Assembly (NCBI RefSeq): GCF_016756745.1
Contig: NZ_JAESIH010000044.1
Span: 1-64,000 of the forward strand
From: Aminivibrio sp.
GTDB lineage: Bacteria; Synergistota; Synergistia; Synergistales; Aminobacteriaceae
Direction of reading: 5' to 3'
DNA: 64,000 bases
Positions 15,640 through 40,067 of the stretch are shown here, in pieces. Position 1 is the stretch's first letter. Each line of letters opens with the position of its first letter. A program made the translations under genes and the position numbers. The notes beneath the pieces are model-generated. The model searched no databases and had not been told where the DNA came from. It saw only the letters and a program-made list of their open reading frames with translations.

Positions 15640-15768
15640 TATAATTCTTTTTCACGTAAGGTCCTTTGATTTTCAGTTCCCGCTTTTCGAACAGGACGGT
15701 AGCCCTTCCACTACCATCGCAGAGGCCTAAACAAGTTGCAGCTTGTTTAGACCTCTGCGCATTTTTTA
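15640..15768 (+). ncRNA. Candidate small RNA ending in a strong terminator
   Basis: A TATAAT hexamer at 15640-15645 is followed about 75 bases later by a GGTAG/CTACC hairpin (near 15698-15715). Next comes a 17-bp stem with one mismatch (15719-15758, 6-nt loop) and then GCGCATTTTTT. The T tract makes it a plus-strand terminator, yet no plus-strand gene precedes it; the genes here are on the minus strand. No convincing -35 box is visible. The hairpin overlaps the last codons of the ImmA-like gene. A short stable or antisense RNA is the simplest reading. Confidence 0.35.
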
Positions 15769-22251: not shown

Positions 22252-23322
22252 CTATAGAATCTCTATATCCATAAGACCAGAAGATCTATTTTCCCTGTAG
22301 TTATCCCGTATTGACTGGATGTATTGTTTATACGTATCCGGATACTCCAGCTGAAAAAAAATTTCTGCCGCGTGGATCTTTTCATCGTCATACTCGTTCA
22401 GGAGCAGCCATACTATGGCCACCGATTCGTCCTCAGGGAATTTATCTGCCTCTGCGAAAGTGACCCTCAAAGGTTTTGTTTCCCCCTGTACCTCCAGGAC
22501 AATTTCATTTCCGTCAGCATCCCTTGCCCCCATCAGCTCAACAGTCAGCAGATTCATAGGGAATCCCCTGATGTAACCAGGGTCATTTTCCAGAAAGGCC
22601 TGCAGTACCGGACAAGGGGGCTTATTGGGATCAAACTTCGCCACATAAGTAAGTATGTCAGTATCATATTTGTATGCATCAGGGAGGACCCTCTGCAAAA
22701 AAGCGGCGGAAATCAGGATGAAATTCGATTCTTCATCCTGATACGAATGCATCAGCCGCTCTTTCGTGAGCACTTCATCGAAAAAAACTTTCCCCAGGTG
22801 TTTGTTGCAATAAATGAGATAGCGCAGTATATTCGGATCTAAATCAATTAATTCACCTGCCTCCGGAGGAAATACCCCTGCCTCAGCCATCAGCAGTGCG
22901 ACTGATTTTCCCCTACTTTCTTTCGCAAGCAGGATATCCCGAGAGAACAGATGGAAAGGAATTTCTTTTCTCTCATCTTCTTCCAAATAATTAGATTTAC
23001 TTACCAGAAAATGCGCAAAGGTATCTCCGTAATCATCTTTGTCATCTGCTGATGCCTTTCTGTTCCAGGAGAGCATTTCCGGCGATATCTGCACGGATGT
23101 TTTGTTGGTGATGAATTCCGTTAAACTGCCATCCGCCCGCTCAAGACGAAAGCTGTTCACATCATCAGGCAGACAAAGGAATATACACTCCTCATCATCA
23201 TAGTCGTCCACGACTGTCTGATTTAAAACAGTATTGCGGTCTCCTGTAAATACAGGAGAAGCATAGAAGGAATGCCCGTAATTATGACGAACCACCAGGC
23301 CATAGATTTTTTTCTCTCTCAT
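22252..23322 (-). CDS. Unknown acidic protein, paralog A of tandem array
   Basis: A 356-residue protein, no family recognised, clearly homologous to its neighbour at 23341-24567. Shared blocks are IYGLVV (N-terminus), IFLCLPDD, FRLE, ITNKTSVQI, FAHFLV, IPFHLFSRDILL, LTKERLM, AIVWLLLNEYDDEK and FFQLEYPDTYKQYIQSIRD (C-terminus). AGGAG lies 8 bases before the ATG. No signal peptide, membrane segment or catalytic signature is visible. The gene is 18 bp from paralog B and probably cotranscribed. Tandem acidic paralogs in a mobile island resemble immunity-gene arrays, but no toxin gene is adjacent. Confidence 0.78.
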   Translation of the reverse strand: MREKKIYGLVVRHNYGHSFYASPVFTGDRNTVLNQTVVDDYDDEECIFLCLPDDVNSFRLERADGSLTEFITNKTSVQISPEMLSWNRKASADDKDDYGDTFAHFLVSKSNYLEEDERKEIPFHLFSRDILLAKESRGKSVALLMAEAGVFPPEAGELIDLDPNILRYLIYCNKHLGKVFFDEVLTKERLMHSYQDEESNFILISAAFLQRVLPDAYKYDTDILTYVAKFDPNKPPCPVLQAFLENDPGYIRGFPMNLLTVELMGARDADGNEIVLEVQGETKPLRVTFAEADKFPEDESVAIVWLLLNEYDDEKIHAAEIFFQLEYPDTYKQYIQSIRDNYRENRSSGLMDIEIL

Positions 23323-23340
23323 TCTGTAGTCTCCTGCCTC

Positions 23341-24567
23341 CTAAAGTATGGAAGGTCCTGTAAAACCTGCCTGACCTGAGCATTTTTCTCTGTAGGCATC
23401 CCGTATTGACTGGATAATTCCCTCATACTGATCCGGATATTCCAGCTGGTAAAAAAGTTCCGCCGCGCGGACCTTTTCGTCGTCTTCACTGACGAAGGTG
23501 AGCCATAGTATCGCCTCCGGCTCATTCTCGGGAAATCTCCCCGCATCCACGAGAGCGTCTCTCAGGGATATAGTCCCGTATTCCCGCCTCGATTTTATGT
23601 ACATATTGATTTCTGTCTTCAGCAGTTTGGGAATCATCGAGCAGGCCGGGAATCTCTTTGTATAATCCGGAATGTCGGACATAAGGATTCCCAATATTGA
23701 TAATCCCTTCGTTACCATTAGAATATCCGGATCATACCGTAATCGCTCCGGGAGCCTTTTGTTTAGAGCCGCTATGACGGCAAGGTTGGCTCCCTGCAAT
23801 ACATCGTCAACATTGCAATTTATAAGTCGCTCCTTCGTCAGGATTCTATCCTCGAGATCACTGTAATCCCTGTAATAACTTTCATCATCACAATCATCAG
23901 TAATTCTGTCGTAAAAAAGAAGGTAATAAGGCACCATCGGATCGGTATCTATATTCTCGTCATTCAGCATCTCCGGCGGAAAGGTTTTGTTGGCTGCCAT
24001 CACTACAGCAACCGAGCATCCGGCACTGCCCTTAAGTGCGAGAATCTCCGGGGAAAAAAGATGGAAAGGAATTTTTTTACGTTTTTTCTCACAGACGAAA
24101 AGAGCTGTTTCAGCGATGAAGTGGGCGAAGGTCTCCCCGTCTTTTGGACGGCAATCAAATTCACGGTGGGTAAAAAAGAACCCTTTACCCCCCTTCTGTC
24201 TCCAAAGAAGGTTCTCCCGGTTTATTTTTACCGATGTATCGTTGGTGATCAGCTTTTTCCAGTCACCTTCCACAGGTTCGAGCCGGAAGCCTTTTTTATC
24301 GTCCGGCAGACAAAGAAAGATTTCAGCTTCATCGTTTTTCTTGGCTTGCTCAATAACAGCGTCGTGGTTTCCGTCAAAAGAGGAAGAAGTATAAAAATGG
24401 CAGTGGCTCGGCCAGATTTTAACCACCAGGCCGTATATCTGACCGACGGCAGCCGCACCTTCTGCGGGATGGACAGATAGCACAACCGATGCTTTCCCGG
24501 TTGTTGTCAGTCGCCCGGAATCCTCATCAACCGATGAAGATTCTGTTTCCGCTGTCTTTCCCATCAT
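23341..24567 (-). CDS. Unknown acidic protein, paralog B of tandem array
   Basis: A protein of about 408 residues, homologous along most of its length to paralog A, with an extra N-terminal segment of about 40 residues rich in Ser, Thr and Glu before GQIYGLVVKIW. Conserved blocks are EIFLCLPDDKKGFRLEP, TFAHFIAET, IPFHLFSPEILALKGSAG, RLRYDPDIL, AILWLTFVSEDDEKVRAAE and LFYQLEYPDQY. The ATG at 24567 is chosen because GGAGG lies 7 bases upstream. The repeated C-terminal motif (DDEK, then AAE, then QLEYP and QSIRD) suggests a common fold or partner. Function unknown. Confidence 0.78.
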   Translation of the reverse strand: MMGKTAETESSSVDEDSGRLTTTGKASVVLSVHPAEGAAAVGQIYGLVVKIWPSHCHFYTSSSFDGNHDAVIEQAKKNDEAEIFLCLPDDKKGFRLEPVEGDWKKLITNDTSVKINRENLLWRQKGGKGFFFTHREFDCRPKDGETFAHFIAETALFVCEKKRKKIPFHLFSPEILALKGSAGCSVAVVMAANKTFPPEMLNDENIDTDPMVPYYLLFYDRITDDCDDESYYRDYSDLEDRILTKERLINCNVDDVLQGANLAVIAALNKRLPERLRYDPDILMVTKGLSILGILMSDIPDYTKRFPACSMIPKLLKTEINMYIKSRREYGTISLRDALVDAGRFPENEPEAILWLTFVSEDDEKVRAAELFYQLEYPDQYEGIIQSIRDAYREKCSGQAGFTGPSIL

Positions 24568-24588
24568 CCCCAAACCTCCGGTTGGAAC

Positions 24589-25199
24589 TTACAGTATGTC
24601 CCCAGGCTCCAGAAATAAACATTCGTTTTTAAAGTAATTCAAGTGAACTTCCCGTATTGCCTGAACATCCTCCCTGGACAGCTTAGGAAACTCGATTTCG
24701 TAATAAAGCTCCGCTACCCGTCGTTTTTGATCATCTTTTTTTTAAGCCAGAAGATCGCTGTTATCTCGTCTTTGGGATACTTGTCACTCGCTACGAGAAC
24801 ACCCTTGAGGGGTTCCTTGTTTCCGTTCCAGTTTATTTTCGTGTTCATCAGATCTTCCAGTTGTTCTTCCGTCATGGATTCCACCGGGAAGTTCCTTACA
24901 AAGTCGGGCTTGTTTGCTATAATAGCGTTCAGTAGCGTATCACCATGACTGCTGTATTTTCCCAGTATTTCCGGCTCATACGTATATTCTTCCGGAAGAG
25001 TCCCATCCGCGACGGTCCAATAAGCAAGATCGTCCCCCCATCCGTTGACGGAATTTATCAGCCGTTCCCTCGTGAGAAAATTTCTGACAATATATTCTTT
25101 ATGATCCTCGTCACCATAGGTATAGGACAGTATCCGTCCGTCAGGGTCGATATCAATAGCTTTCTCATTTATCATCTCCAGAGAGAAGACGCCTTCCAC
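24589..25199 (-). pseudogene. Paralog C of tandem array, 5'-truncated and frameshifted
   Basis: The frame opening at 25199 encodes the C-terminal half of the same family (EMINEKAIDIDPDGRILSYT, LTRERLINSV, EITAIFWLKKK) but ends at 24714. After a run of eight A on the coding strand (about 24740-24748) the family sequence resumes in another frame (DDQKRRVAELYYEIEFP, then QAIREVHLNYF) and stops at 24589. A stop lies just before the first in-frame GTG, and the N-terminal IYGLV half is missing. The frameshift could be a sequencing error in the homopolymer, but the 5' loss is real. Confidence 0.75.
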
Positions 25200-25424: not shown

Positions 25425-26513
25425 TTATAAGGGAAATTCAAGTTTAAGTCGGTAGAGAGCGATTTCATTCCAACCTATACGTTTTTCTTTGGCAAGTCGT
25501 CCCCAAACGATACCTGGATGAATTTGAATTTCCTCAGAAAAAGCTTCTACGGCTTGATAGGAAAAGTTGTTTTTCCGAAGGAAGGAATCGAAAGGAGCCG
25601 GAGGAATCAGGGCATCCCTAGCGTACTCGTCTGCTTCGTCTTCTAGCCTGCATTGACCAGGGGATTGAGAGTACGAAATAAAGGGTTCGCTTTTTTGATG
25701 TCCTTTGATGATATGCCCCAATTCGTGGAAGAAAGAGAACCAAAAAATATCCGCGTACGCATTTCGTAAAGATAACGAAACGAGAGCTTTCTTTGGAGAG
25801 AGCCACCTCACTGCTCCATTGATGGGGGCACCTTTTATGTGCGGGATGAAGGAGACCGCTATTCCGCATTTGGCACATATGGTAGTTATTTTTTCCCAAA
25901 ATCCCTTGTGGCATAGGGAGAGCGCCCGAAGATCGGGGATGGCGGCGCGAAGTCTGTCAAGGGAGAAGGGTGCGGTTTTAATATCAACCGCCATCCGTTC
26001 ACCCTGTCGCAGCCATGCCATGATCGCAAAGAAAGATGTTTTGGAGTATTCTTTGAGTCTAAAGTTTGCGGCATAAGGGAGGGACTGTATGTTCTCCAGG
26101 GATGCGACCCCAAAGAAGCTGCGCAGGGCTTCGACCTTTTTCCCCTTTTCGCGTGTCGGGACTACCCATCCGTGTCTGCTCATGTCGGCATAACAAAGGA
26201 ATTCACTCGCGATACTGTGTTCAAGAGCTATCCTTTTCTGATTTTCCAGCCGGGCTAAATCCGTGCGATAATTCGCTTCCATGGTTGTCCAAAAGTTAGC
26301 GCTTATTCCAAGCACAGTGTCCAGTTTGATTGCCGTTTCTGCAGTGATGGGTGCTTTCCCCTTGATTATTTCATTGATGGTTTTAGGAGCCATGCCCATA
26401 CGATCAGCAAATTCCTTTTGGGTCATGTCAAGATACTCTAGAGTTTCTTGCAATGTACTTCCCGGAGGGACAGCATAATCACTTTTCCCAGCGGGTACTT
26501 TTCTAATCGCCAT
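25425..26513 (-). CDS. higA: HigA-type antitoxin fused to an ImmA/IrrE peptidase domain
   Basis: A 362-residue protein. Residues about 15-85 are a HigA/XRE helix-turn-helix (LDMTQKEFADRMGMAPKTIN, KLDTVLGISANFW). Residues about 170-330 contain an ImmA/IrrE-type domain with FFHELGHIIKGH near 263 and the downstream acidic DEADEYARDALIP. It is the partner of the HigB toxin upstream, whose stop it overlaps by 11 bp. The N-terminal part should bind toxin and operator DNA, and the C-terminal part may process the antitoxin. This long, peptidase-fused antitoxin architecture is known but less common than small HigA. Confidence 0.85.
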   Translation of the reverse strand: MAIRKVPAGKSDYAVPPGSTLQETLEYLDMTQKEFADRMGMAPKTINEIIKGKAPITAETAIKLDTVLGISANFWTTMEANYRTDLARLENQKRIALEHSIASEFLCYADMSRHGWVVPTREKGKKVEALRSFFGVASLENIQSLPYAANFRLKEYSKTSFFAIMAWLRQGERMAVDIKTAPFSLDRLRAAIPDLRALSLCHKGFWEKITTICAKCGIAVSFIPHIKGAPINGAVRWLSPKKALVSLSLRNAYADIFWFSFFHELGHIIKGHQKSEPFISYSQSPGQCRLEDEADEYARDALIPPAPFDSFLRKNNFSYQAVEAFSEEIQIHPGIVWGRLAKEKRIGWNEIALYRLKLEFPL

Positions 26514-26844
26514 GGTAATCTGTCACCTCCATAATGATGATTTTCGTTACGGCACTCCAGTCGAGTCCTCCTGTTGGAAGAAGTGAGATAGGTGTGTGAT
26601 CCGGCACGAAAACAAGACGCATATTATCAGTCAGGTCCACAGCTAAACTTCCTTTCCTGTTACCTTTCAGTTCATGGCAACGTGCCGGCGGAAGTTTGCT
26701 AATGACTTGCAGAGAAGAAGCGGCTTCGAATTCTTTCAATCGCTGACGGATTTTCCCCGCCAATTTCGAGCCAAACGCCTTATTCCCCAACGATTCTTTA
26801 TTACACTGCTTTTCTAGCTTCTTCGTTGAGTAGTATATAATCAA
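26503..26844 (-). CDS. higB: HigB-type toxin (RelE superfamily ribosome-dependent RNase)
   Basis: A 113-residue basic protein of the HigB/RelE fold, with LPPARCHELKGNRKGSLAVD and NMRLVFVPDH as characteristic core strands and IIIMEVTDYHGD at the C-terminus. Such toxins cut mRNA at the ribosome. The start is TTG at 26844, with GGAGG 7 bases before it; the overlapping ATG in another frame runs only 16 codons. It precedes its antitoxin gene, the typical higBA order. Confidence 0.85.
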   Translation of the reverse strand: MIIYYSTKKLEKQCNKESLGNKAFGSKLAGKIRQRLKEFEAASSLQVISKLPPARCHELKGNRKGSLAVDLTDNMRLVFVPDHTPISLLPTGGLDWSAVTKIIIMEVTDYHGD

Positions 26845-28131: not shown

Positions 28132-29184
28132 ATGTGGAAACCCTACGTGAGGTTTTCGTCCTTCTGCTCCGGGATGCGGGCGGTACAGTCGGCACCCGCT
28201 CATGCTTCATACCTCACGAGGGAAAAGGAGTGCCTTCTCTGGAGTATGGAAAGCAGAAATAGAGAAATATCCGACCGCAGGGAAGCCGCCAGTCGATGGA
28301 AAGAAATAGCAAAAATGGAAACCGGGCTCTCCCCTCTCGACACTCCTGCGGGGAGAGCCCGGTCGGATGCGTGCGTCCAGGTGCGCCTGTTTCTGCCCCT
28401 GCCAAATCTGGTCTTCGACGGAATGACGAAAGCCGAAACTAGGGATGCACTCACTGCCCTCGTCCGGAAACTGGAGCTGGATTCCACGGATGTGATGTGG
28501 TCTCTCCACAAAGGAGTGCCGGGTGGTTCCGAAAAATATCAACGGGACCAGAATCTCCACCTTCATATTTCCTACCGTCCAAGAAACGATGAAGGACACA
28601 AACACAGGATTTCCATCCGCAGAGAGGTGATTTCCCTGCGGGAGGCCCTGGGAGGGTGGCTCCAGGAGAGAGGGTTCCCAATCGACTGGAAGTCCGTCAC
28701 ACAACCCGGAAAACGGCGGCATATTTCCCCGGAGAAAATCGCCATGGCCGAACGGGGGGAACTCCTCCACTCTCCGAAAGAGCAACTCCAGGCGGACCTG
28801 ACCCTGGCAAAACGGTTTGTGGCGAAGCTGACCCGGGAAGAAGCGCGGCGAATTCTTCTTGAACTCCTTCGCTCGGAAGAAGCCGCCTTTTCCCGGCTTG
28901 AAGAAGAAATGGCGTCGCAGGGCTGGTCGATTTCAAGAACCCGGAGGGGAAAACGGGATACCTGGATTCTGAAGGACGAGTCCGGAAAAGAGCTCGCTCT
29001 TCGCAGAATCCTGAACTGCAAGGAAGATGAAGTTCATCGTCTTTTTATGGCCCTTCAAGCAAGAGACGCAGAGAAAGCCCCTTCAAAAGAGCCCTCCGGA
29101 ATGCTTCAGCAGCAGTCAGAAGAAAGGGCTGAACCGGATAAGAACGGATCGGAAGAGACCACTCCAGAAATCTCACGAAATTAA
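28132..29184 (+). CDS. MobA/MobL-like (MobQ-type) relaxase, divergent
   Basis: A 350-residue protein resembling MobA/MobL relaxases. AHASYLTREKE near residue 25 recalls their AHxxYITRE segment. QNLHLHISYRPRND near 145 supplies the His-hydrophobic-His metal motif of HUH nucleases. LREALGGWLQERGFPIDW is also family-like. The C-terminal 130 residues are charged helices with a DNA-binding look. A relaxase nicks oriT and stays attached to the transferred strand through a tyrosine near the N-terminus; Tyr5 and Tyr27 are candidates. It would make the island mobilisable, although no type IV secretion or coupling gene is present here. The match is by motif only. Confidence 0.55.
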   Translation: MWKPYVRFSSFCSGMRAVQSAPAHASYLTREKECLLWSMESRNREISDRREAASRWKEIAKMETGLSPLDTPAGRARSDACVQVRLFLPLPNLVFDGMTKAETRDALTALVRKLELDSTDVMWSLHKGVPGGSEKYQRDQNLHLHISYRPRNDEGHKHRISIRREVISLREALGGWLQERGFPIDWKSVTQPGKRRHISPEKIAMAERGELLHSPKEQLQADLTLAKRFVAKLTREEARRILLELLRSEEAAFSRLEEEMASQGWSISRTRRGKRDTWILKDESGKELALRRILNCKEDEVHRLFMALQARDAEKAPSKEPSGMLQQQSEERAEPDKNGSEETTPEISRN

Positions 29185-29529: not shown

Positions 29530-29724
29530 TCAGTCTTTCTCTTCCGGGGTCGCTCCGTTGTCCAGAGCCCATTCAAGAAGCCAGCGGATCGCCTGCGCCC
29601 GGGATTGGAACCGATGTTCGAAACGGAAATCGTCGGGTCTTTCCAGAAATTCTTGGTCATAAACAAAATTTTCCAATGGCTTGTTCCCTGGCCCATTCAA
29701 AATTGCAAAACCTACCTTGTACAA
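29530..29724 (-). CDS. Small ribbon-helix-helix-like DNA-binding protein
   Basis: A 64-residue protein starting at TTG 29724. Its C-terminal half, FEHRFQSRAQAIRWLLEWAL, has the strand, SRAxAIRWLL helix and turn pattern of ribbon-helix-helix repressors. An alternative start lies near residue 16. Its 5' end overlaps a 32-bp palindrome, as expected for autoregulation. Copy-control and mobilisation regulators of this kind are common next to relaxases. No better family assignment is possible. Confidence 0.5.
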   Translation of the reverse strand: MYKVGFAILNGPGNKPLENFVYDQEFLERPDDFRFEHRFQSRAQAIRWLLEWALDNGATPEEKD

Positions 29725-29736
29725 GACAGGTTTTGC
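29705..29736. promoter_or_regulatory. 32-bp palindrome, likely operator
   Basis: GCAAAACCT and AGGTTTTGC flank the central palindrome CTTGTACAAG, leaving only two 2-base interruptions. It sits at the 5' end of the ribbon-helix-helix-like gene and could bind the dimeric product. Confidence 0.6.
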
Positions 29737-29876: not shown

Positions 29877-30332
29877 TCAATCCGCTAAGGCAGTATTTCT
29901 CCGTAAATATTGGTGGTGATAATTTGTCCATAGTGATGCGAGTTTTTTATTCAGGATGGCACTGTTCTTTTTTTTCAGTTCGCACTCCCAAATACGCAAC
30001 ACCGTCCATCTCCTGGCTTTAAACATCTCGGTGACAGCTTTATCACGGGCAATATTTCGCTCTCGCTTCGCCATCCAAAATTCTTCGTTTTGTTTCGGAC
30101 GTGTATTCCGGCAATCGTGCCCGTGCCAGAAACATCCGTCTACGAAGACAACTATTCGCTCTTTTAAGAATACAAAATCGGGATGTCCCTTCGCTGGGTA
30201 GTTGCGTCTCCAACCCTTTATGCCTTTCGAACGGAAGACTTCAATCAATTTCAGTTCCGTGGACTTATTGTATTTGGAGCGCACCTTGCTCATAATTGCC
30301 GACCGCGTACCCTTATCAAAAACGTCGGGCAT
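29877..30332 (-). CDS. vsr: Very short patch repair endonuclease Vsr
   Basis: A protein of about 151 residues beginning MPDVFDKGTRSAIMSKVRSK. It has the Vsr core: GWRRNYPAKGHPDFVFLKER with the catalytic Asp, then VVFVDGCFWHGHDC with the Zn-site Cys and His. Vsr nicks next to T:G mismatches made by deamination of 5-methylcytosine, protecting sites methylated by a cytosine methyltransferase. ATG 30332 has GAGGTG just upstream. It is the last gene of the defence operon, consistent with repair at sites modified by the two cytosine methyltransferases. Confidence 0.93.
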   Translation of the reverse strand: MPDVFDKGTRSAIMSKVRSKYNKSTELKLIEVFRSKGIKGWRRNYPAKGHPDFVFLKERIVVFVDGCFWHGHDCRNTRPKQNEEFWMAKRERNIARDKAVTEMFKARRWTVLRIWECELKKKNSAILNKKLASLWTNYHHQYLRRNTALAD

Positions 30333-30356
30333 ACAAAACACCTCAATCGAATTAAT

Positions 30357-31556
30357 CTATATCTTTATAATCATCCCCAAATCTGGGTTATAACGGTAAT
30401 GCTCAATCTCTTTCTTTACAATAAGGCTAATCGCCTCCTCTAAAGCGGGCAGCGGTACGACAAACCACTCTCTCGGATAGTGCATTTTTCCCTGATCATC
30501 TATTATTTCGAAAAAAATATTACACTGTTCGAAAAATCGGTGGATGTTCGCCTCAAGGTAAGAAACATCCAAATTGAAACAACGAACGGAAAGGATTACT
30601 TCCACTCCACTCATTAGATACGTTGGATTATTTTCGGCATTTTTTATTCGGCTGGTAATATCCCCAGTACAGTAGCCTATTTTGTAGAGGTTGCGAATAC
30701 CGCGGACTTCCTGTGAATGACTTAAGCTCCGCAACACATAAATGTATCCATTTTGGACATCATTCGGTTCGATTTTTGGAGTCCCGTCATCAATCATTTG
30801 AAGGTCACTGATACCAAAGCCATCGATACGCATCGCGTTAACGAGAGAACGGAACAGCATGGTGGACTCTGTGCCGTTGTCAAATATACAGCGCGTTCTT
30901 CCGTCTCTCCTGCGGTAGACTTCTCCTTGATAGGTTTTCTCGGTCAGCTCCGTTTTATCTGTTTCCAAGTAGAATGTCACTCCGCGCAACACGAAATATC
31001 GTCCCTCAATCAAGTCTTCTTGACCGTTGAATACAAGTAATTTTCGACGTCCGCTTGAAAGGTCTTTTTGTATACGCTTGAACGCGTCTTCGTACATATC
31101 GAAGTCTTTACAGACCTTACGCCTCGCGATATAGTCGGGGCGCAGTCTGTCGGATGGTTTGACGTGAGATAAATTGAAGATGCTGTTTCCTTCCTCTTCG
31201 GACGCAAGTAAATCGAGCGGGTCTTCCTTAATAAGGTCTTCCAGCGATATCGTCTTGGTTTCCTCTGACTGAAGCAGATTATACATATCGTACGACAATA
31301 AAACCTTGACCTTTTTGGGGTCGGATTTTATTGCTGATAGCCTTGAGGCAAGCATGAACTCTCTGATATCACTACCATCAGAATTAGGCAGACGCTGGTT
31401 ATCCTCATAGAATTGGGATATTTCTTGAAACTGATCTATGAGTCGCCAATCTTCTTCTCGACGGTACTGTTTCGGAATCTCAGGGACGTTTAGCAGTCCA
31501 AGAGTATCGCTTTCTATTATCTCGTCCAGCTTCGATTGGCGTGCCTTTTCATCCAT
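30357..31556 (-). CDS. GIY-YIG (T5orf172-like) nuclease-domain protein of the R-M operon
   Basis: A 399-residue protein. Residues about 1-190 are a charged helical region without recognised domain, and about 190-270 a beta-rich segment (GRRKLLVFNGQEDLIEGRYF). Residues about 290-375 form a GIY-YIG-type domain: GYIYVLRSLS, NLYKIGYCTGDITSRIKNAE and YLEANIHRFFEQ supply the Tyr, Tyr-Lys-Ile-Gly, Arg and Glu expected of the T5orf172/MUG113 group. It overlaps the helicase gene by 8 bp. No other nuclease domain is obvious in the operon apart from Vsr, so this protein is the best candidate for the cutting subunit. That role is inferred. Confidence 0.7.
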   Translation of the reverse strand: MDEKARQSKLDEIIESDTLGLLNVPEIPKQYRREEDWRLIDQFQEISQFYEDNQRLPNSDGSDIREFMLASRLSAIKSDPKKVKVLLSYDMYNLLQSEETKTISLEDLIKEDPLDLLASEEEGNSIFNLSHVKPSDRLRPDYIARRKVCKDFDMYEDAFKRIQKDLSSGRRKLLVFNGQEDLIEGRYFVLRGVTFYLETDKTELTEKTYQGEVYRRRDGRTRCIFDNGTESTMLFRSLVNAMRIDGFGISDLQMIDDGTPKIEPNDVQNGYIYVLRSLSHSQEVRGIRNLYKIGYCTGDITSRIKNAENNPTYLMSGVEVILSVRCFNLDVSYLEANIHRFFEQCNIFFEIIDDQGKMHYPREWFVVPLPALEEAISLIVKKEIEHYRYNPDLGMIIKI

Positions 31557-33483
31557 TTTGTTGAACTCGATTCAGTTGTCTGATATAGGCTAAAGCCTCA
31601 GCCAGGCGGCGCTCGAGTGGATCAAACGCATCCAGCGATGGTTCACGCCTCATTGACTTTACAAACTCGTTTATCTTCGGCCACAGGAAGAAGGCTTCAT
31701 CGTCCGTCATACTCACCTTGAATGCGGTTATGCAATCCTGAATCGATTTCAACACCTTCGGAGTAATCGACTTGGAGAGCACTTCGAAAGCCTGTTGGAA
31801 CGGATTTATCGAATCGATAAGATCAATGTTCAATTCTTCGATGTTGATAAACTTGCCACTCATATTGATGAAGCGGCGGTCTCCAACTTGGCTTAAGGAC
31901 GTGTGGCGTATGACCATATCCGTTACCAAATGCTGACGGACTTCTTCGACCTCGTCACCCGAAAGATCTGGATATTTGGTCATAATGATTTTAGGTATCA
32001 TAACTTTATTTACAACGCCCGGATCAATTTCTCCGCTGACAGATTTTATTACGTCTGGATCTTGGAGTATATTTGCCTTTAATTCAGTCAAGTCCGACTC
32101 GATGATATTCTTAACCTGTGGGGTAGACGGCTCGCGCAAACCGCCGACGCTTATAGTACGAGCGTCGTTACCACTTTTATCCTCATCCGGTTTCTTGGGT
32201 TTGAAATTAAAGTTAGGCGCAAGAACCTGCTCCATAAGCAATGACGCCGTTATCGCTTTCAGCATATTGTTGACCGATTCCACAACTTCCTCGTTGTCGG
32301 CGTCAGGCTCCGCTATAAGGTTGGTAAACTGCGAGTGGGTCTTGTTCGCGCTGTCCCTCGTGCAACGCCCGATTATTTGAATAATTTCTGTTAAAGAACC
32401 ACGGTATCCGACAGTCAATGCATGTTCGCAAAAAGGCCAGTCGAAACCCTCCTTCGCCATACCAAGAGCGATAATTAAATCCACATCATCCAAGTTCTTA
32501 ATACCGCGAAGGTACTCGACCACCTTTTCCCGCTCGGAACCGTCGTTAACCAAGTCCGCGACTTTAATTTTCTTTCCGTCTGACCGTCTCTTGACGTGGA
32601 CAATGTTCGTTTTGGGGTCAACAAATTCTACATCACCAACGGCATCGATAATTGTATCGACTTCAATGTATTTATCCTTTGTCGATTCGCCGGAAGTTAC
32701 ACTCGGTATATGAAGAATAGTTTTCTGGTTTGTATCCAAAACTTCCATTATCGCCGAGGTGTATTTCCCTGCATAGAAGTGAAAACCAATGCCCAAAGAT
32801 TTTAGAAACGTATATCCGTTAAGCTGTTCGTAGTAGTTATAGGTCACCTTGAAAAACTTCGCCTCGTCCACACCCGTAAGGACTGGTATGCCGTCACCGC
32901 GAAAATAAGAGCCGGTCATCGCCAGGATATGGACGTTCCCTTGAACCATGAAAGCTCGCACCAGTTCGCCCAACTTGCTTTCATAGTCTGCGGAGACGTG
33001 ATGGAACTCGTCGACCGCTACCAAGCAATTCTTGAACTTTTCCTCACCCGCTCTATCAAAGGCAAACCGAAGCGTGGCATGGGTGCAGAGCAAGATGGTA
33101 TCTTCCTCTGAATCGAGAAAACTTAAAAAGGTGTTCACCTTGCTATCGTTTGTTTCAGCACCGGGAACACAGAGGTTGTATTTGTCCGAAAGCGTCCAAT
33201 CACTGTGGAAGCCATTTGTAGTCAAGTTTGTCGACAAAAACGACTTGCCGATCGCTCTTTCTGGTACGGCTACAATCACCTTTTTAACCTGACCAGTATT
33301 CAGCTTATCCAAAGCGATGAACATCAACGCCCTTGACTTTCCCGACGCCGGCGGGGCTTTTATAAGAAGATATTGGGCGTTACGAGCGGTGTATGCACGA
33401 GCTTGCATTTCACGCATGCCCAAAGCATCGACTTGTGTGCTTTTTCCCGTGGCCTCATAGTTGATTTTTACAATGTTCTCCAT
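31549..33483 (-). CDS. SF2 DEAD/DEAH-type helicase of the R-M operon
   Basis: A 644-residue superfamily 2 ATPase. Walker A is LIKAPPASGKSRALMF near residue 40, motif II is AVDEFHHVSADYE near 155 (a DEFH variant of DEAH), motif III resembles AMTGSYFRGDG, and motif VI is IIQIIGRCTRDS near 368. It lacks the large extra domains of type I HsdR and type III Res subunits, and no PD-(D/E)xK nuclease signature is seen in the C-terminal 230 residues. It follows the adenine methyltransferase by 5 bp and overlaps the GIY-YIG gene, so it probably provides ATP-driven translocation in the same complex. Confidence 0.85.
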   Translation of the reverse strand: MENIVKINYEATGKSTQVDALGMREMQARAYTARNAQYLLIKAPPASGKSRALMFIALDKLNTGQVKKVIVAVPERAIGKSFLSTNLTTNGFHSDWTLSDKYNLCVPGAETNDSKVNTFLSFLDSEEDTILLCTHATLRFAFDRAGEEKFKNCLVAVDEFHHVSADYESKLGELVRAFMVQGNVHILAMTGSYFRGDGIPVLTGVDEAKFFKVTYNYYEQLNGYTFLKSLGIGFHFYAGKYTSAIMEVLDTNQKTILHIPSVTSGESTKDKYIEVDTIIDAVGDVEFVDPKTNIVHVKRRSDGKKIKVADLVNDGSEREKVVEYLRGIKNLDDVDLIIALGMAKEGFDWPFCEHALTVGYRGSLTEIIQIIGRCTRDSANKTHSQFTNLIAEPDADNEEVVESVNNMLKAITASLLMEQVLAPNFNFKPKKPDEDKSGNDARTISVGGLREPSTPQVKNIIESDLTELKANILQDPDVIKSVSGEIDPGVVNKVMIPKIIMTKYPDLSGDEVEEVRQHLVTDMVIRHTSLSQVGDRRFINMSGKFINIEELNIDLIDSINPFQQAFEVLSKSITPKVLKSIQDCITAFKVSMTDDEAFFLWPKINEFVKSMRREPSLDAFDPLERRLAEALAYIRQLNRVQQNG

Positions 33484-33488
33484 ATCTA

Positions 33489-36164
33489 TTAACCTCTCAG
33501 TTGAGTGTATAAATCAAACAAAACTTCTAATCGCTCCTTATCGGAAACAAAAGGTGCGTCACGATAACAGCTGTCTATGACCAAATCCAAGAGGTGATGC
33601 GCGAAACGCAGATCGGGGGGCATATCTCCAGGGTCATACAATTGAGCGAATGTAAGTCCGGGAAACTTCTCCCTCGCCTCAATCACGTCGAAAACTCTCC
33701 GCGTTATTTCGGTTTTCCGCGCTTCGCTAACGTCAGGGAAGGGGAAAGTGTTGTACCCTAACTCCGAGGAATATCTGATCCGCGTCTCTAAAGCTCCACA
33801 TACAGTCCTAATCCAGACGTTATGCATCTTCGAAGCGATGACGCCAAATATCCACGGCTCGCAGTCATAAATCAAAAAAGCAAGGTTTGTGACCACGACG
33901 TTCTTATCGACGAAGCCAATGGGAATGTACTCTCGATTCTCCGAGGAAACCGACGGAATGACGAGAGAATTTTTTGTAGTTTCACGATTTTCACGGAACC
34001 TATGCGGATGAGCAGCGTGAGCGCGGGCAGAGTTGTCGGAACTGGCAAGCCGTCTCCGCCGCACACATTCTATTCGTTCCGTAATATACGGTATGTCCTT
34101 AGCCTCCTCTAAGTCTTCATCGTGTATCCAGAAACACCAACGCTCGATTCCGTTTATGAATTCGTCAGCCCCTACTATTTTCTTAAGAAACTTCCGTACT
34201 CCCGGTTCACGGGACACAAGATCTACCTTTTCTTCATGGTTTAGAAAATAATCGCTCCAATAGAGGGGCATATTACCCTTTACCATCTTCGGTATTTGAC
34301 TTATCGGCAAACGTTTTCTTTCCACGATGGTCTCCCCTGCAGTCAGGTATGGGCTGATGTTATTTGGCGAGTATACGGTAGTCGGTGTATATAACTCGCA
34401 AGGTTTGTGAGTTGTTATAGGAGTGACGCCAATAATCACCACTGTTACCGCCGTTCGGTTTCGAGCGTCGTTCTTCCATTTGAAAGACGTATGGGCAAAA
34501 CTAATGCGAACGCCTTTCTCAAAAAGCTTCGGCCATAGTAATTGCACCTGCTGGCCTTGCGTGAGGGAATTTGTGGTCACAAAAGCGAATCCCCCCCCGT
34601 GAGCGCAGATGTACTTTGTTGCGAGCATAAACCAACAGGCGACATAATCAAGGTCCGATATTTTGGTGTATCCTGCGAAAACGTGACGAAGGTCGCCTTT
34701 CTGCGCTTGGTTTTGTTTCCGCGCACCTATATAAGGTGGATTGCCGATCAGATATGTTTCGTCTTTTCCCCCGCATACCGTTTCCCAATCAATCCGAGTG
34801 GCGTTACCCGTCACTATGTTGTTCGAGAAAAGTGAATTTACAGCCTCGCCAAAAACGGATTTGATATCTGGACTCTTTCTTGCTTCCTGACATACAACAA
34901 ACACGAATCCCAAACGAGCGATGGCGCAGGAAAAAGGGTCATCATCGATCCCGTAAAAGTTGCCTAATGGAATAAGCGAGAACGTACCTTGGGAGTGAAA
35001 ATTATGGTCTGAAGGCAATGAGGATGACTGACACCCCAAAACTGCCGCCTTGTCGGTAGTTTTTATCGTATCGATAATTTTGCCCGCTAGTTTATTCAAC
35101 TCCTTATATGCCGTGAGCAGAAAATTTCCGGCGCCACATGACGGGTCGAATACGGAAATGAGTCGAACGCGTTTTAGCAATGTGGCACACTCTTCGCGGC
35201 TCGCCTTCACACGGTCGAATGCACGGTACAAATCTTCCATAAACAAGGGGCCAATTACCTTTTGAATATTGGCGGTGGAAGTATAGTTGCCGCCTGAGCT
35301 TCTAGAATCGGGACGGATTATGGATTGGATTAGAGCACCAAGAATCTCGGCGGTAATTTCAGACCAGTCCAGACCCAATAAATCAAGCATAAGGTTTCTT
35401 GCTGCTTGGTTAAAATCCAATAGGGGGGAAGCATTACTGAACAAGCGGGCATCAATATATCTCACATTGGAGAAGTATCCGGGCAGACCAATAGGCGATT
35501 TTGATTTCATCGCCTCAAATAAATAACAAAAGAAAGTACTGGTGTCCGAACCCGACACATCCGTATAGTTCGCTAACAAAGGTCGCAGACCTCCGTTCGT
35601 CAGGACGCCAATGCTGTCTGCAAAGCAACAAAACAAAAAGCGACAAAGAAACTCGGCGATTTCATCACTGTGATTGTGATTTTCCAAACTCAGTGCGTTA
35701 TATAGTTCAGCGAACTTCACGGCGGTTTTTATGTCCGCCGACCTCATCTCGTCATTCGCCGTTTCAGGCATAATACCCAATAACGGAAAAAAGAACTCGA
35801 TGTATCTAAAGAGTTCGACCTTGCTTGTCTCCAGTACATCGCCGGAATCTCGTTCATAAGCAAGCAGATCGGTCTCGTTTACAATAATGATAAAAGCTTC
35901 CCTAATCTTTGATAGGTCGTTCTTTTTCAAGATATTGAATTCCGAGTTCAAATTTTCTGCAATCGAAGCCAGAAAAAAAATATTGCCGTTTCCTTGAATA
36001 CGTACCCCTTGATTGACACTGTTTTTCGTTTCGACTTCCAGGCGGGCAAACGTAGCCTTCGGGAAATTAAACGCGGAAAGGAACCCCTCCAAGAAGGCGT
36101 TGTTGTCGGCAATATATCCTAATTCCTTAACATCGCTTTGGACTTTATCGTAATCTATCGTCAT
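33489..36164 (-). CDS. MmeI-like class I N6-adenine DNA methyltransferase
   Basis: An 891-residue protein with a methyltransferase core: motif I VFDPSCGAGNFLLTAYKEL near residue 340, motif IV LIGNPPYIGARKQ near 474, and a C-terminal target-recognition region (WIRTVCGALETRIRYSSELG near 800) of the kind seen in MmeI-family enzymes. The N-terminal 300 residues are helical and show no PD-(D/E)xK motif, so unlike true type IIG enzymes it seems to lack a fused nuclease. It overlaps the upstream cytosine methyltransferase by 4 bp. It should methylate adenine; recognition sequence unknown. Confidence 0.85.
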   Translation of the reverse strand: MTIDYDKVQSDVKELGYIADNNAFLEGFLSAFNFPKATFARLEVETKNSVNQGVRIQGNGNIFFLASIAENLNSEFNILKKNDLSKIREAFIIIVNETDLLAYERDSGDVLETSKVELFRYIEFFFPLLGIMPETANDEMRSADIKTAVKFAELYNALSLENHNHSDEIAEFLCRFLFCCFADSIGVLTNGGLRPLLANYTDVSGSDTSTFFCYLFEAMKSKSPIGLPGYFSNVRYIDARLFSNASPLLDFNQAARNLMLDLLGLDWSEITAEILGALIQSIIRPDSRSSGGNYTSTANIQKVIGPLFMEDLYRAFDRVKASREECATLLKRVRLISVFDPSCGAGNFLLTAYKELNKLAGKIIDTIKTTDKAAVLGCQSSSLPSDHNFHSQGTFSLIPLGNFYGIDDDPFSCAIARLGFVFVVCQEARKSPDIKSVFGEAVNSLFSNNIVTGNATRIDWETVCGGKDETYLIGNPPYIGARKQNQAQKGDLRHVFAGYTKISDLDYVACWFMLATKYICAHGGGFAFVTTNSLTQGQQVQLLWPKLFEKGVRISFAHTSFKWKNDARNRTAVTVVIIGVTPITTHKPCELYTPTTVYSPNNISPYLTAGETIVERKRLPISQIPKMVKGNMPLYWSDYFLNHEEKVDLVSREPGVRKFLKKIVGADEFINGIERWCFWIHDEDLEEAKDIPYITERIECVRRRRLASSDNSARAHAAHPHRFRENRETTKNSLVIPSVSSENREYIPIGFVDKNVVVTNLAFLIYDCEPWIFGVIASKMHNVWIRTVCGALETRIRYSSELGYNTFPFPDVSEARKTEITRRVFDVIEAREKFPGLTFAQLYDPGDMPPDLRFAHHLLDLVIDSCYRDAPFVSDKERLEVLFDLYTQLRG

Positions 36165-37069
36165 TCGCCCTTCTCGCTTTTCCGCTGCGAATACTCGACG
36201 ATCTGCCGTGCCACAAACTCTGCCAACTTTACGGGCACGGCATTCCCGATAGCCTGCTCAACATCGGTTTTCTTTCCCTTAAGAATGAATTTCTCCGGAA
36301 AGGTCTGAATATAGCTGCGCTCCTTCGTAGTTAATTCACGAACTCCTCCATCGCCTACATCGGCTTTGTCACCATGATGTTTTTTGTAGTTTTGAGGGAT
36401 CGGTCTATTTACGCCTCTAATTGTCGCGCTAGGTTCGTTGACGCTAAATACGGCTCTTCGATTGTAGCTACGTGGATGCATATAGTAAAAATCTGTTTGG
36501 AGCATGTCTCCCAAATAGTCTCGCACCGTCATCGGGTTCTTAGATTGTGCCGTGTCCAACATCACTCCAAGAAAATCATCTTTCGCACCCAACAAACCGA
36601 TCATAAAGAACCGTCTGCGAGCTTGCGGCACTCCGCAGTGGCTTGCGTTCAATACTCGAATTGTGAGGCCGTACCCCGCCTCCTTAAAAATGATTTGTGC
36701 TTTCGGCAGTATTGGCATACGTTCTATATTGTACACGTTTTCCATAACAAACCATGTCGGTCTGATTTCTTTTACGATCTTCGCAAATCGGATGGTAAGA
36801 TTGGCCCGTTCGCCCATATTCCTACTTGCAGCTATGGAAAAGTCCTGGCAAGGCGGACCGCCAATTATCAAATCCGGGTTGAACATTTTGATACGGTCAA
36901 TCACGCTTTCTGAGTTTAAGTCATAATCATAAACAGGGTGTTTAAAGTTATCACTGTAGATATTGATTGCCGGTTTCCAATTATCAAACGCAGCGATAAT
37001 GTCAAATCCCGCATTCATAAACCCCAGAGACATGCCTCCACAACCGCAAAACAAATCCACAGTCTTCAT
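36161..37069 (-). CDS. DNA cytosine-5 methyltransferase (second of two)
   Basis: A protein of about 302 residues, with ATG 37069 preferred because AGGAAGG precedes it and upstream extension would overlap the other methyltransferase. Motifs in order: I VDLFCGCGGMSLGF, IV GGPPCQDFS with the catalytic Cys, VI FVMENV, VIII QARRRFF, and X EQAIGNAVPVKLAE. The variable region between VIII and IX is short. It is a sister of the enzyme encoded just upstream. The pair probably methylates the two strands of an asymmetric site. A 77-bp near-identical patch at its 5' end indicates exchange with the sister gene. Confidence 0.93.
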   Translation of the reverse strand: MKTVDLFCGCGGMSLGFMNAGFDIIAAFDNWKPAINIYSDNFKHPVYDYDLNSESVIDRIKMFNPDLIIGGPPCQDFSIAASRNMGERANLTIRFAKIVKEIRPTWFVMENVYNIERMPILPKAQIIFKEAGYGLTIRVLNASHCGVPQARRRFFMIGLLGAKDDFLGVMLDTAQSKNPMTVRDYLGDMLQTDFYYMHPRSYNRRAVFSVNEPSATIRGVNRPIPQNYKKHHGDKADVGDGGVRELTTKERSYIQTFPEKFILKGKKTDVEQAIGNAVPVKLAEFVARQIVEYSQRKSEKGE

Positions 37070-37079
37070 TAGACCTTCC

Positions 37080-38060
37080 TCATTCCCCCCGCGTCTTATC
37101 GTATGCGATGATGGCGAGGCCAATGTGTTCCGCCAGTTTCACGGGAACCGCGTTTCCAATCATCTGGTTTAAATTTGATTTTGTTCCTTCAAATACAAAG
37201 GTCTTTGGGAAAGTCTGGACGTAGCTTCTCTCAAGTATCGTTAATGCTCTAACCTTGGGGCCTATCTCGACGGGGTCTGATGGATGCCCCTTATATCCGC
37301 TCGGAATGGGTCTATCAACTCCTCTTATTGTCTGACAAGGTTCGTAAATACTGAAAACCCCTCGTCGGTTATAGCTTCTCGGAACGCGGAAGTAACACTC
37401 TACCCCAAGGCTGTCTCCCAAATAGTCAAACATCGTCATGGGTTTCTCGGCCAAATTTGCTTCCAGGTATTTCTGGAGGAATCCATCAGCGGCTCCAAGA
37501 CAACCAACCAGTACATAGCGCTTACGAGATTGCGGAACTCCGCACAGGCTAGCGTCCAATATCATTGACGTCAATCCATACCCAGTTTTAGAAAACCTTT
37601 CGAGAATTTTGCCGAGGATTTCGCTTTTCGTGATTTCCGGCACATTCTCCATTACGAAATATTCCGGCATAACTCTTGTGATAATATCGCAGTAGGTAGC
37701 GGTCAAAACCGCTCGCCCCAAGTTCACATTGCGGTGACCAGCCGATGAGAAGTCTTGACAAGGGGGACCGCCAATGATGATATTTGGTGACAACCCTTTA
37801 ATTTTGGCTTGTGTGGTTTCGTCAGTTAAGTCTTCCTGGTAGATTGGATGATTAAAGTTTTTTCGATACACATCCACGGCCGGTTTCCAATTATCAAACG
37901 CAGCGATAACGTCAAATCCCGCATTCATAAAACCCAGAGACATGCCTCCACAACCACTGAATAAGTCAACCGTCTTGAATCTCTTTATTGGTAGTTCGCT
38001 TTTCTTTCCATCGTACTCTCGATTATACGATTCTGATAGTGAGTTATTTCTTTGTTTCAT
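37080..38060 (-). CDS. DNA cytosine-5 methyltransferase (first of two)
   Basis: A protein of about 326 residues starting MKQRNNSLSESYNREYDG. Motifs: I VDLFSGCGGMSLGF, IV GGPPCQDFSSAG, VI FVMENVPEI, VIII QSRKRYVLVG, and X NQMIGNAVPVKLAEH. Its start overlaps the controller gene by 17 bp and it is followed within 11 bp by its sister. Two tandem cytosine methyltransferases in one locus generally mean a non-palindromic recognition site needing separate enzymes for each strand. Confidence 0.93.
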   Translation of the reverse strand: MKQRNNSLSESYNREYDGKKSELPIKRFKTVDLFSGCGGMSLGFMNAGFDVIAAFDNWKPAVDVYRKNFNHPIYQEDLTDETTQAKIKGLSPNIIIGGPPCQDFSSAGHRNVNLGRAVLTATYCDIITRVMPEYFVMENVPEITKSEILGKILERFSKTGYGLTSMILDASLCGVPQSRKRYVLVGCLGAADGFLQKYLEANLAEKPMTMFDYLGDSLGVECYFRVPRSYNRRGVFSIYEPCQTIRGVDRPIPSGYKGHPSDPVEIGPKVRALTILERSYVQTFPKTFVFEGTKSNLNQMIGNAVPVKLAEHIGLAIIAYDKTRGE

Positions 38061-38256
38061 TTTCCATCTCCATAATGTCACAAACATCACAATGCAAAGC
38101 TGAGCATATTTTTTGAAGCATCTTGGTATTTACGTTTTCATTGCGTCCCAACTTGGCTACCGAAGACGAACTTATTCCGGAAATCTTCTGAAGGTCCTTC
38201 TTTCTCATCTTCTTATCAATTAGTAACTTCCACAGCTTGTTGTAGTTAATGGTCAT
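38044..38256 (-). CDS. Controller-type XRE regulator of the R-M operon
   Basis: A 70-residue helix-turn-helix protein (KKDLQKISGISSSSVAKLGR is the recognition region), the size of restriction-modification controller proteins and small Cro-like regulators. GGAGG lies 7 bases before the ATG. It is the first gene of the operon and overlaps the first methyltransferase. A perfect inverted repeat overlapping the promoter upstream (38328-38355) is the likely binding site, which would time expression after the island enters a new host. Confidence 0.8.
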   Translation of the reverse strand: MTINYNKLWKLLIDKKMRKKDLQKISGISSSSVAKLGRNENVNTKMLQKICSALHCDVCDIMEMENETKK

Positions 38257-38306
38257 TTTGCTACCTCCAGTAACCTATATCTTCATGTAGAAGAGCAAGT
38301 ATTGAG

Positions 38307-38335
38307 AGTTTATCAAATAAATAATTTGAGTTCAA
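38307..38335 (-). promoter_or_regulatory. Promoter of the R-M operon
   Basis: On the minus strand TTGAAC (38335-38330), 17 bases, then TAAACT (38312-38307), about 50 bases before the controller start. The -35 box lies inside one arm of the inverted repeat at 38328-38355. Confidence 0.65.
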
Positions 38336-38355
38336 ATAATTAAATGCTTGAACTC
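38328..38355. promoter_or_regulatory. Probable controller-protein operator
   Basis: GAGTTCAA and TTGAACTC form a perfect 8-bp inverted repeat with a 12-base spacer. One arm contains the -35 box, so binding should directly modulate transcription of the operon. Confidence 0.65.
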
Positions 38356-38501: not shown

Positions 38502-39881
38502 TTAAAAGAAGGTCACTTTTTTCAATACCGGAAGCATCATATCGGGGGGATAATCATCCGTAATGTAATGCCTCGCCATTACAGCAAGCGTTGATGATGG
38601 AATTCCCTGTACCTCAACTCTTCGCCCGCTGATGCGCGCCGCAATTCTTTTCTCGTGGTCGGATAGCGGGAGTAAGCTGACTTTAGTTTCCCAGGTGTGG
38701 CGTAAATCCGATAGAGCAAGTCCGCTAACCTTGATTTCCGGGAAACACGATTCGCGGAACCAGCGAGATACACTCTGTGCACAGCCGTTAACGGGATGCC
38801 AGCCAACATCAAAGAGCCGGTGAGGATGGTTGCAGCATTGTCCGGCAGACAAGCGTGATTTCCTGTCCATGCAATATTCCAGGAAACCCTGTTCTAACAC
38901 AAATGGGTGGACAGGAATCAAACGTTTGGATTCCCGGTTTTTGACGCTTTTCTCGAACCCCTCCGTGATCGATATGCAGGGGATTTTTTCGTAAATAAGT
39001 ATATCGTCATGATGCAGCTGTGCGGCTTCTCCGACACGGCAACCCTGGAAAAGGCACATCAGAAACATCCAGTATCGCCACCTCAGGTCACTGCCCTTCC
39101 AGCTATCATTGAATGCCTTAAACTGACTTATATGTTTTGTTACTGATCTGATTTGGTCAACAGAAAAGGATTTGCCCTGCTTTTTCGCCGAGGCTTTCTT
39201 TCCGGGGAAAATCGAAAATATCTTTTCCAGGTGCTGTGTATTGTATTCAAATGTATCCAGCCAGGAGAAAAACTGAGATACCCACATGATCTTGTTTCTC
39301 TTGGTCTTATCAGCGAGTTGCGATTGCTTCAGCCAATCGGCATAAACAGCAACATCAGTACGAGTTATTTCCTTCACCGGTCGTGAACCATGATTTCCCA
39401 TGACGTTCAGAAACTCTCTGAGTATTCCTGCCATGTTTTTGAGCGCGCTCGGCCCCTTGTTCCCAGGAGGAGACTGAAGATACTCCTCGACGGTTTCCCC
39501 GAGTGTCTTCTGCCTTTCATTTTCTTTATTAAAAACTTTTGCAATGGCTTCCATTACGGCTTTTCTGGCAGGATTAATATTTTCCGGGGGGTCGCGATAA
39601 AGTGTACCGGCAAGGGTATCCCAAGATTCGGTGACCATGTGGACCAAAACTTCTTCATTTCTCTTTTGCCTGTCATTTCGGGTCTTCAAGGCAAAAGCCT
39701 CCTCCAAGGACATGATAGCCACGCGTTGAAGCTTCGGCAGCATTTGAGAAAATAAGTCTGCAGAGCAGAGCGAGAATTTAATCTCACGGCATTTGTAGCG
39801 ATGGCGAAGCGACTGGGGAACCCCCCGGCGATAGTAGATTTTATTGTTGCGTCGGACGATATGAGGTAGAGAAATAAGCAA
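38502..39881 (-). CDS. Tyrosine site-specific integrase of the island
   Basis: A protein of about 459 residues. An N-terminal domain (HIVRRNNKIYYRRGVPQSLR) is followed by a core-binding domain (TLGETVEEYL, ITRTDVAVYADWL) and the catalytic domain: GCRVGEAAQL with Arg I, LALSDLRHTWETKV with Arg II (the usual first His is Ser here), and VMARHYITDDYPP with the likely Tyr nucleophile. TTG 39881 is chosen because AGGGAG lies 8 bases before it; the frame stays open through the tRNA genes but that part is not coding. Location beside the tRNA-Lys att site identifies it as the island's own integrase. Confidence 0.85.
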   Translation of the reverse strand: MLISLPHIVRRNNKIYYRRGVPQSLRHRYKCREIKFSLCSADLFSQMLPKLQRVAIMSLEEAFALKTRNDRQKRNEEVLVHMVTESWDTLAGTLYRDPPENINPARKAVMEAIAKVFNKENERQKTLGETVEEYLQSPPGNKGPSALKNMAGILREFLNVMGNHGSRPVKEITRTDVAVYADWLKQSQLADKTKRNKIMWVSQFFSWLDTFEYNTQHLEKIFSIFPGKKASAKKQGKSFSVDQIRSVTKHISQFKAFNDSWKGSDLRWRYWMFLMCLFQGCRVGEAAQLHHDDILIYEKIPCISITEGFEKSVKNRESKRLIPVHPFVLEQGFLEYCMDRKSRLSAGQCCNHPHRLFDVGWHPVNGCAQSVSRWFRESCFPEIKVSGLALSDLRHTWETKVSLLPLSDHEKRIAARISGRRVEVQGIPSSTLAVMARHYITDDYPPDMMLPVLKKVTFF

Positions 39882-39991
39882 AAGGAACACTCCCTGGTGT
39901 ACCAATTTTGTACCAGTAAGTGTCCCTTTATATTTTGAAGCAATCTCGTAAAGGCTTGCAATCACTAATCCTATACGGTTGCTAAAATTTC

Positions 39992-40067
<76 letters not shown>

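Follow-up and report, generated by a model that had tools for sequence, protein, structure and literature searches.

A dnmA-yeeB-yeeC trio joined to a LlaJI/HgaI-type cytosine methyltransferase pair: a candidate composite restriction-modification operon in Aminivibrio

Genes of the dnmA(yeeA)-yeeB-yeeC cluster have been described with synteny across bacteria, and the B. subtilis DnmA protein makes N6-methyladenine (m6A) (PMC9973331); the V. crassostreae trio is cited in the same paper as affecting phage sensitivity. LlaJI, with the site GACGC/GCGTC, has two 5-methylcytosine (5mC) methyltransferases (MTases) (PMC1459862), and the HgaI-like MhoVI cassette, in which a gene for a 70-aa XRE protein is followed by M1, M2 and R, has the same site (PMC12376442). 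A fused M1-M2 is reported for MhoVII (PMC12898733). Here we analyzed a 64,000-nt stretch of Aminivibrio sp. DNA (contig NZ_JAESIH010000044.1, positions 1 to 64,000; hereafter the window), in which a dnmA-yeeB-yeeC-like trio lies behind a 5mC MTase pair in a run of seven genes. A sequence-only reading had taken this run for one composite restriction-modification (R-M) operon, and both its gene content and its recurrence in other loci support that view.

All seven genes lie on the minus strand in the order C-M1-M2-MTase-helicase-GIY-YIG-Vsr, as first read; this was borne out by the list of open reading frames (ORFs) and by profile matches, and Pfam, PADLOC and NCBIfam back the assignment of every ORF. 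The first gene (38044-38256) encodes C, a 70-aa helix-turn-helix (HTH) protein of the Cro/C1 type and putative controller (Pfam HTH_26, E = 6.5e-17), and has a good Shine-Dalgarno sequence, GGAGG. It is followed by two C5-cytosine MTases forming a LlaJI/HgaI-type pair, M1 (37080-38060 from its ATG, in a frame that stays open as far as 38090; Pfam DNA_methylase, E = 1.2e-63) and M2 (36161-37069 from its ATG; E = 8.9e-68). The fourth gene (33489-36164) encodes a DnmA-like adenine MTase of the MmeI family, the proposed reader subunit, which matches MmeI_Mtase, MmeI_TRD, MmeI_C, MmeI_hel and, weakly, MmeI_N. Next come a YeeB-like superfamily 2 (SF2) helicase/translocase (31549-33483; Pfam DEAD, ResIII, Helicase_C) and a YeeC-like T5orf172 GIY-YIG protein, a putative nuclease (30357-31556; T5orf172, E = 1.5e-9; MUG113, E = 1.9e-8), whose T5orf172/GIY-YIG domain, residues 270-379 by the Pfam match, is encoded at 30420-30749. 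The last gene encodes a Vsr mismatch endonuclease (29877-30332; TIGR00632, 101 bits, cut-off 97.85), and downstream of it lies a terminator-like hairpin of 14 pairs on the same strand (29705-29736, by pattern match only). The junctions are as tight as first described, with overlaps of 17 nt (C/M1), 4 nt (M2/MTase) and 8 nt (helicase/GIY-YIG) and gaps of 10 nt (M1/M2), 5 nt (MTase/helicase) and 24 nt (GIY-YIG/Vsr); the 17 nt had been given as a gap and the 10 nt as 11. The single promoter initially assumed found no support, as a sigma-70 scan gave no site upstream of C on the minus strand. The grouping itself is not due to chance, because an Oscillibacter metagenome-assembled genome (locus L011) repeats all seven genes in identical order.

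The MmeI-like MTase, SF2 helicase and T5orf172 genes are consecutive and co-oriented in the window. This matches the published dnmA-yeeB-yeeC cluster (PMC9973331), and the core gene set is therefore already known and not new; the earlier impression that the gene set was unlike any known does not hold for this trio, which is an existing named system. The stand-alone trio is common on plasmids and was found in those of Providencia, Arthrobacter, Pediococcus, Klebsiella and Ligilactobacillus, and it is the sole annotated content of a 7.7-kb Pediococcus plasmid; YeeB homologues occurred on 263 plasmid records. Several stand-alone loci have an extra gene between dnmA and yeeB (L058 5955-6968; L037 4716-5585; L075 7091-8725 and L077 8006-8878, both on the minus strand). 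These inserts belong to the RhuM family, FRG domain, Schlafen/AlbA_2 or Bro-N families and could act as toxins accessory to the trio system or as its regulators. In L076 (2035-10480), yeeB-yeeC occurs without dnmA and adjoins genes for a SIR2-like protein, a HerA-like ATPase and an AlbA_2 protein, so motor and nuclease may work with further recognition modules too. On a 77-kb Acinetobacter baumannii plasmid (L006 8489-12956), the yeeB homologue is broken by a rearrangement near ISAba1 copies.

M1 and M2 stand in tandem, are 55% identical and show similarity to LlaJI-type pairs in their target recognition domains (TRDs). The PCQ, ENV and QxRxR motifs of M1 and the catalytic motifs of M2 are intact, and the nearest relatives of M2 are found in the loci that share the composite arrangement and in LlaJI-type cassettes. 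C homologues lie upstream of M1 in L011, L012, L017, L039 and L042. Relatives of the pair, 54-67% identical to that of the window, stand beside an AAA protein and a RE_LlaJI-type nuclease in Coriobacteriia, and the pairs of L013-L016, within the same identity range, sit with LlaJI-type or similar R genes. Pfam and PADLOC found a cognate R gene (RE_LlaJI plus McrB-like, or HgaI R) beside M1-M2 in L013, L014 and L009, and none among the operon genes of the window. HTH-M1-M2 is thus a known kind of writer module whose R gene is replaced in position by the trio, since the LlaJI/MhoVI-type relatives share the pair and both C and the MhoVI XRE protein are 70 aa long; as the same kind of pair also occurs with LlaJI R1/R2, the writer is modular. 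Vsr repairs the T:G mismatch left by 5mC deamination, which suits a genome carrying 5mC, and a copy 62% identical to that of the window occupies the same place in L011. M1-M2 pairs were also seen beside complete type IIL MmeI enzymes that have the D..ExK motif (L019 10916-13624, L026 6300-9095, L028 6314-9091), and the TRD residues of these enzymes read differently from those of the composite.

A search with M2, using one genome per species, gave 19 loci, nine of which carry M1-M2-DnmA-YeeB-YeeC in the order of the window (L011, L012, L017, L018, L020, L021, L022, L023, L025). Their hosts are the Oscillibacter genome, Anaerovirgula, Anaerocaecibacter, Sulfurospirillum, Muribaculum, two Porphyromonas, a Muribaculaceae isolate and Palleniella. 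A YeeB search of viral contigs added L039 and L042, in which a single reading frame, convergent to the trio, encodes a fused M1-M2 (L039 10151-11950 and L042 10150-12018, both on the minus strand). The composite thus comprises 12 loci from four phyla (that of the window, represented by 188 genomes, Bacillota, Campylobacterota and Bacteroidota) and two viral contigs, with the window order kept in 10. A tree of 65 YeeB proteins places these 12 in one clade (support 100/99), every sampled member of which has the 5mC pair, and the distances of M1, M2, DnmA and YeeC track those of YeeB (r = 0.85, 0.80, 0.90 and 0.94, respectively; 0 of 5000 permutations as high). One clade and co-divergence indicate that the composite is inherited or transferred as a unit, and it is a rare but real variant distinct from the dnmA-yeeB-yeeC cluster. 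An M1 scan of viral contigs gave no match, YeeB scans of these contigs levelled off at the same 41, and the plasmid searches turned up no closer composite relative. The open-access literature searched, PADLOC and the plasmids yielded no description of this combination.

The DnmA-like protein of the window aligns with MmeI (5hr4) at E = 6.4e-144. In MmeI, His314, Asn481-Phe484 and Trp570 make up the adenine box, and these residues are reported to be invariant among 341 family members (PMC4833311). All 38 stand-alone DnmA proteins have motif I as DPACGSGNF and motif IV as NPP[YFW] and keep His314 and Trp570, and two further stand-alone loci from a YeeB-guided search agree on both motifs. The composite proteins differ from these throughout. 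Motif I deviates in all 12 and is lost in the Bacteroidota and L039/L042 proteins, His314 is lost in seven and Trp570 in two, and motif IV is broken in 10 (NPSY in two, NPTY in one, SPQF in one, SPDF in three, SPTF in one, NTQY in two, with NPPY in the other two). The window and L017 are the loci that keep NPPY together with a recognisable motif I; in the window, these are NPPY at 34731-34742 and DPSCGAGNF at 35121-35147, and an Asn codon (35286-35288) takes the His314 position in the alignment to MmeI. On the YeeB tree, the motif IV states need at least three changes. Fisher tests on motif loss are descriptive only, because the composite clade has a single origin. Judged by these motifs, the catalytic residues of the adenine MTase are decaying in the composite clade while the 5mC pair stays intact, and the initial view that both chemistries are in use in one system has become doubtful. 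Of the N-terminal nuclease domain of MmeI, the window protein has a remnant without D..ExK, a motif missing in stand-alone and composite DnmA alike and present in the type IIL enzymes of L019, L026 and L028.

The recognition domain has changed in the opposite manner. The MmeI-type TRD of the window (33732-34334, minus strand; Pfam MmeI_TRD, E = 5.1e-78) has the specificity residues KMNLERR, read at MmeI positions 642, 645, 773, 774, 806, 808 and 810. Only two haplotypes, KMNLERR and KMNNERR, occur in the 12 composite proteins at YeeB identities down to ~50%, whereas the 38 stand-alone proteins have 35, which differ even between pairs with 96-98% identical YeeB. Mean pairwise identity is accordingly higher in the TRD than in the MTase domain for the composite (0.50 against 0.33) and lower for the stand-alone proteins (0.37 against 0.50). 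Such a pattern is expected if the TRD of a stand-alone protein serves both marking and cutting and is free to change, while that of a composite protein must match a separate writer. Read with the MmeI code (PMC4833311), the window residues give xRCGxC (R at 2, C at 3, G at 4, C at 6), into which GACGC/GCGTC fits in register; GACGC is one of the 16 among 1024 five-mers that match all four specified positions. The exchange A774L made MmeI refuse 5mC at base pair 4 (PMC4833311). The window protein has Leu at position 774, and base pair 4 is where the CpG mark would fall. The composite site is thus predicted to be compatible with GACGC/GCGTC and to be blocked by 5mC.

The motor and the putative nuclease are well conserved. 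The GKS, DEFHH and GRxTRD motifs of YeeB are conserved over 41 homologues, and the helicase is 47-80% identical to that of the window across phyla. A structural model of YeeB (predicted local distance difference test, pLDDT, 78) resembles SF2 motors, including EcoR124I HsdR and the type ISP enzyme LlaBIII, in Foldseek. A nuclease domain hidden in the helicase was considered and rejected, as model and Foldseek results show an SF2 motor with a mostly helical C-terminal part, modelled at moderate confidence only, that has no nuclease match. With none in the MTase either, the original observation that no PD-(D/E)xK nuclease is evident stands. In YeeC, G270, Y273, K292, G294, R303 and E335, which include the GIY-YIG tyrosine, arginine and glutamate, are invariant in 39 homologues, and the suggestion that the GIY-YIG protein is the cutter is supported as probable.

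Drawing on gene content, recurrence, co-divergence, the catalytic decay of the clade, its frozen recognition and the conserved motor, nuclease and 5mC motifs, all read from sequence, we propose with a probability of roughly 55% that the operon is one R-M system made of two joined modules, in which M1-M2 would write 5mC, the DnmA-like protein read, YeeB move and YeeC cut. Inferred beyond these data are the precise site, the assembly of a complex, cleavage and defence against phage. HTH-M1-M2, plus Vsr, would be a writer of the LlaJI/HgaI/MhoVI type and would probably methylate both strands of GACGC/GCGTC at the CpG core, and DnmA-YeeB-YeeC would be the restriction module. With the host marked by M1-M2, the DnmA-like protein would have been freed from adenine methylation and its catalysis would have decayed, while its recognition domain would have been retained and frozen on the site marked by the pair. 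5mC in this site would block the DnmA-like reader. On unmodified foreign DNA, the protein would bind and engage the YeeB translocase, and YeeC would cut. That the writer belongs to one enzyme family and the reader to another, with a former adenine MTase that has lost or is losing catalysis acting in a helicase and GIY-YIG restriction complex as its 5mC-sensitive specificity subunit, we regard as an even call.

Several points weigh against this proposal. The window protein may still methylate adenine to some extent, because NPPY is kept and the motif I change is mild, next to the exchange H314N. The TRD code was established on MmeI and not on DnmA, and the target of M1-M2 is taken from their family (LlaJI, HgaI; other matches are named HindV). 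Nine of the 12 composite loci were found through M2. Since the pairing has a single origin, the link between decay and the 5mC pair comes from one clade without an independent replicate. The YeeC model (399 aa, pLDDT 84) has no significant Foldseek match in the PDB, and its assignment therefore rests on Pfam and residue conservation. Finally, B. subtilis dnmA-yeeB-yeeC gave neither phage protection nor restriction (PMC9973331).

If adenine methylation persists, the DnmA-like protein could mark adenine on one strand, with 5mC added by M1-M2, and self-recognition would require the two marks together. The retained NPPY and motif I of the window and L017 would suit such a dual mark, as would the active appearance of the stand-alone relatives and the m6A made by B. 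subtilis DnmA (PMC9973331), but motif IV is lost in 10 of the 12 proteins, motif I as well in Bacteroidota and L039/L042, and His314 in the window itself. A mark essential for survival should not vanish repeatedly in an otherwise intact locus, and we consider this explanation unlikely. Somewhat less likely still is that two independent systems share a transcript, with HTH-M1-M2-Vsr, as an R-M remnant or an anti-restriction writer directed at LlaJI/HgaI-type enzymes, placed upstream of an ordinary trio. Each module does exist alone, the trio on plasmids and M1-M2 with LlaJI R genes; however, the pairing is a single ancient one that spans four phyla and has co-diverged, and decay and frozen recognition appear only in the paired clade, neither of which independence predicts. 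It is also conceivable that the locus is a relic of restriction, no longer functional and retained for epigenetic regulation, as was proposed for B. subtilis dnmA, whose deletions had no phage phenotype (PMC9973331). If the marks alone mattered, YeeB and YeeC would be expected to decay before anything else, but it is the adenine MTase that decays; with a strongly conserved helicase and invariant catalytic residues in YeeC, a relic is improbable, the least credible of these alternatives.

The operon lies inside a low-GC stretch (~21-40 kb) that ends in a tyrosine recombinase gene (38502-40067, minus strand) beside the tRNA-Lys gene of a seven-tRNA array. As listed, this ORF extends into the tRNA genes, so that its true start lies downstream. 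Low GC and a tyrosine recombinase at tRNA-Lys make a genomic island most likely; a direct-repeat att site was not found, the tRNA-Lys end occurring once within the window. A YeeB search across the phylum of the window and a YeeC search of 151 near genomes found no copy in its relatives, so the operon is probably a recent acquisition. At 28132-29184 on the plus strand lies a gene for a 350-aa protein without Pfam match, in which an HLHISY stretch resembles, by eye, the metal-binding part of a relaxase; if it is one, the island would be mobilisable. Also present on the minus strand are tandem genes for 356-, 410- and 161-aa proteins (22252-25199), paralogue-like, with an IYGLVV stretch in two and no Pfam match, and genes for a HigB-like toxin with an HTH + M78 peptidase antitoxin-like protein (25425-26844). 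A second HTH/M78 pair lies at 15747-16645.

If the proposal is true, an enzyme would have turned into a sensor: a foreign MTase pair took over marking from a bifunctional MTase that had diversified freely, the active site decayed and specificity froze. It would make testable the old idea in R-M evolution that drift in specificity is possible only where marking and cutting share one domain, and it would give a candidate function to the widespread, poorly understood dnmA-yeeB-yeeC genes, whose B. subtilis copy showed no restriction.

Among known systems, DISARM, BREX and Druantia were rejected. A PADLOC scan of the seven proteins found none of their core genes (DrmA, DrmB (DUF1998), PglZ, BrxC, DruE) and gave nothing beyond generic MTase overlaps (DrmM, PglX, DruM), in line with the difference from DISARM and BREX that the sequence-only reading had pointed out. 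Type ISP (LlaBIII, LlaGI) and type I R-M systems likewise couple MTase-type recognition to an SF2 motor, and the operon probably works like them, but its functions lie on separate polypeptides without PD-(D/E)xK, instead of the nuclease, helicase, MTase and TRD that type ISP joins in one, and its presumed self mark is 5mC rather than m6A. With MmeI, the product of the fourth gene shares the MmeI_Mtase, TRD, spacer and C-terminal domains; unlike this type IIL enzyme, it lacks the N-terminal PD..ExK nuclease in the MTase polypeptide as well as His314, and is accompanied by a helicase and a separate nuclease gene. LlaJI (M1, M2, R1, R2) and HgaI/MhoVI (XRE, M1, M2, R) likewise have tandem 5mC MTases in an operon, in that type one for each strand of an asymmetric site, but here DnmA-YeeB-YeeC replaces their R gene or genes and no McrB-like or HgaI-like nuclease is present. 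The dnmA-yeeB-yeeC cluster is alike in its three genes and their order, with an MmeI-like MTase without nuclease motif, an SF2 helicase and a T5orf172 protein. In the sampled loci of the known cluster, no 5mC pair is linked, the m6A active site is intact and the specificity residues change fast, whereas the system of the window has a 5mC pair, an apparently decaying active site and frozen specificity residues.

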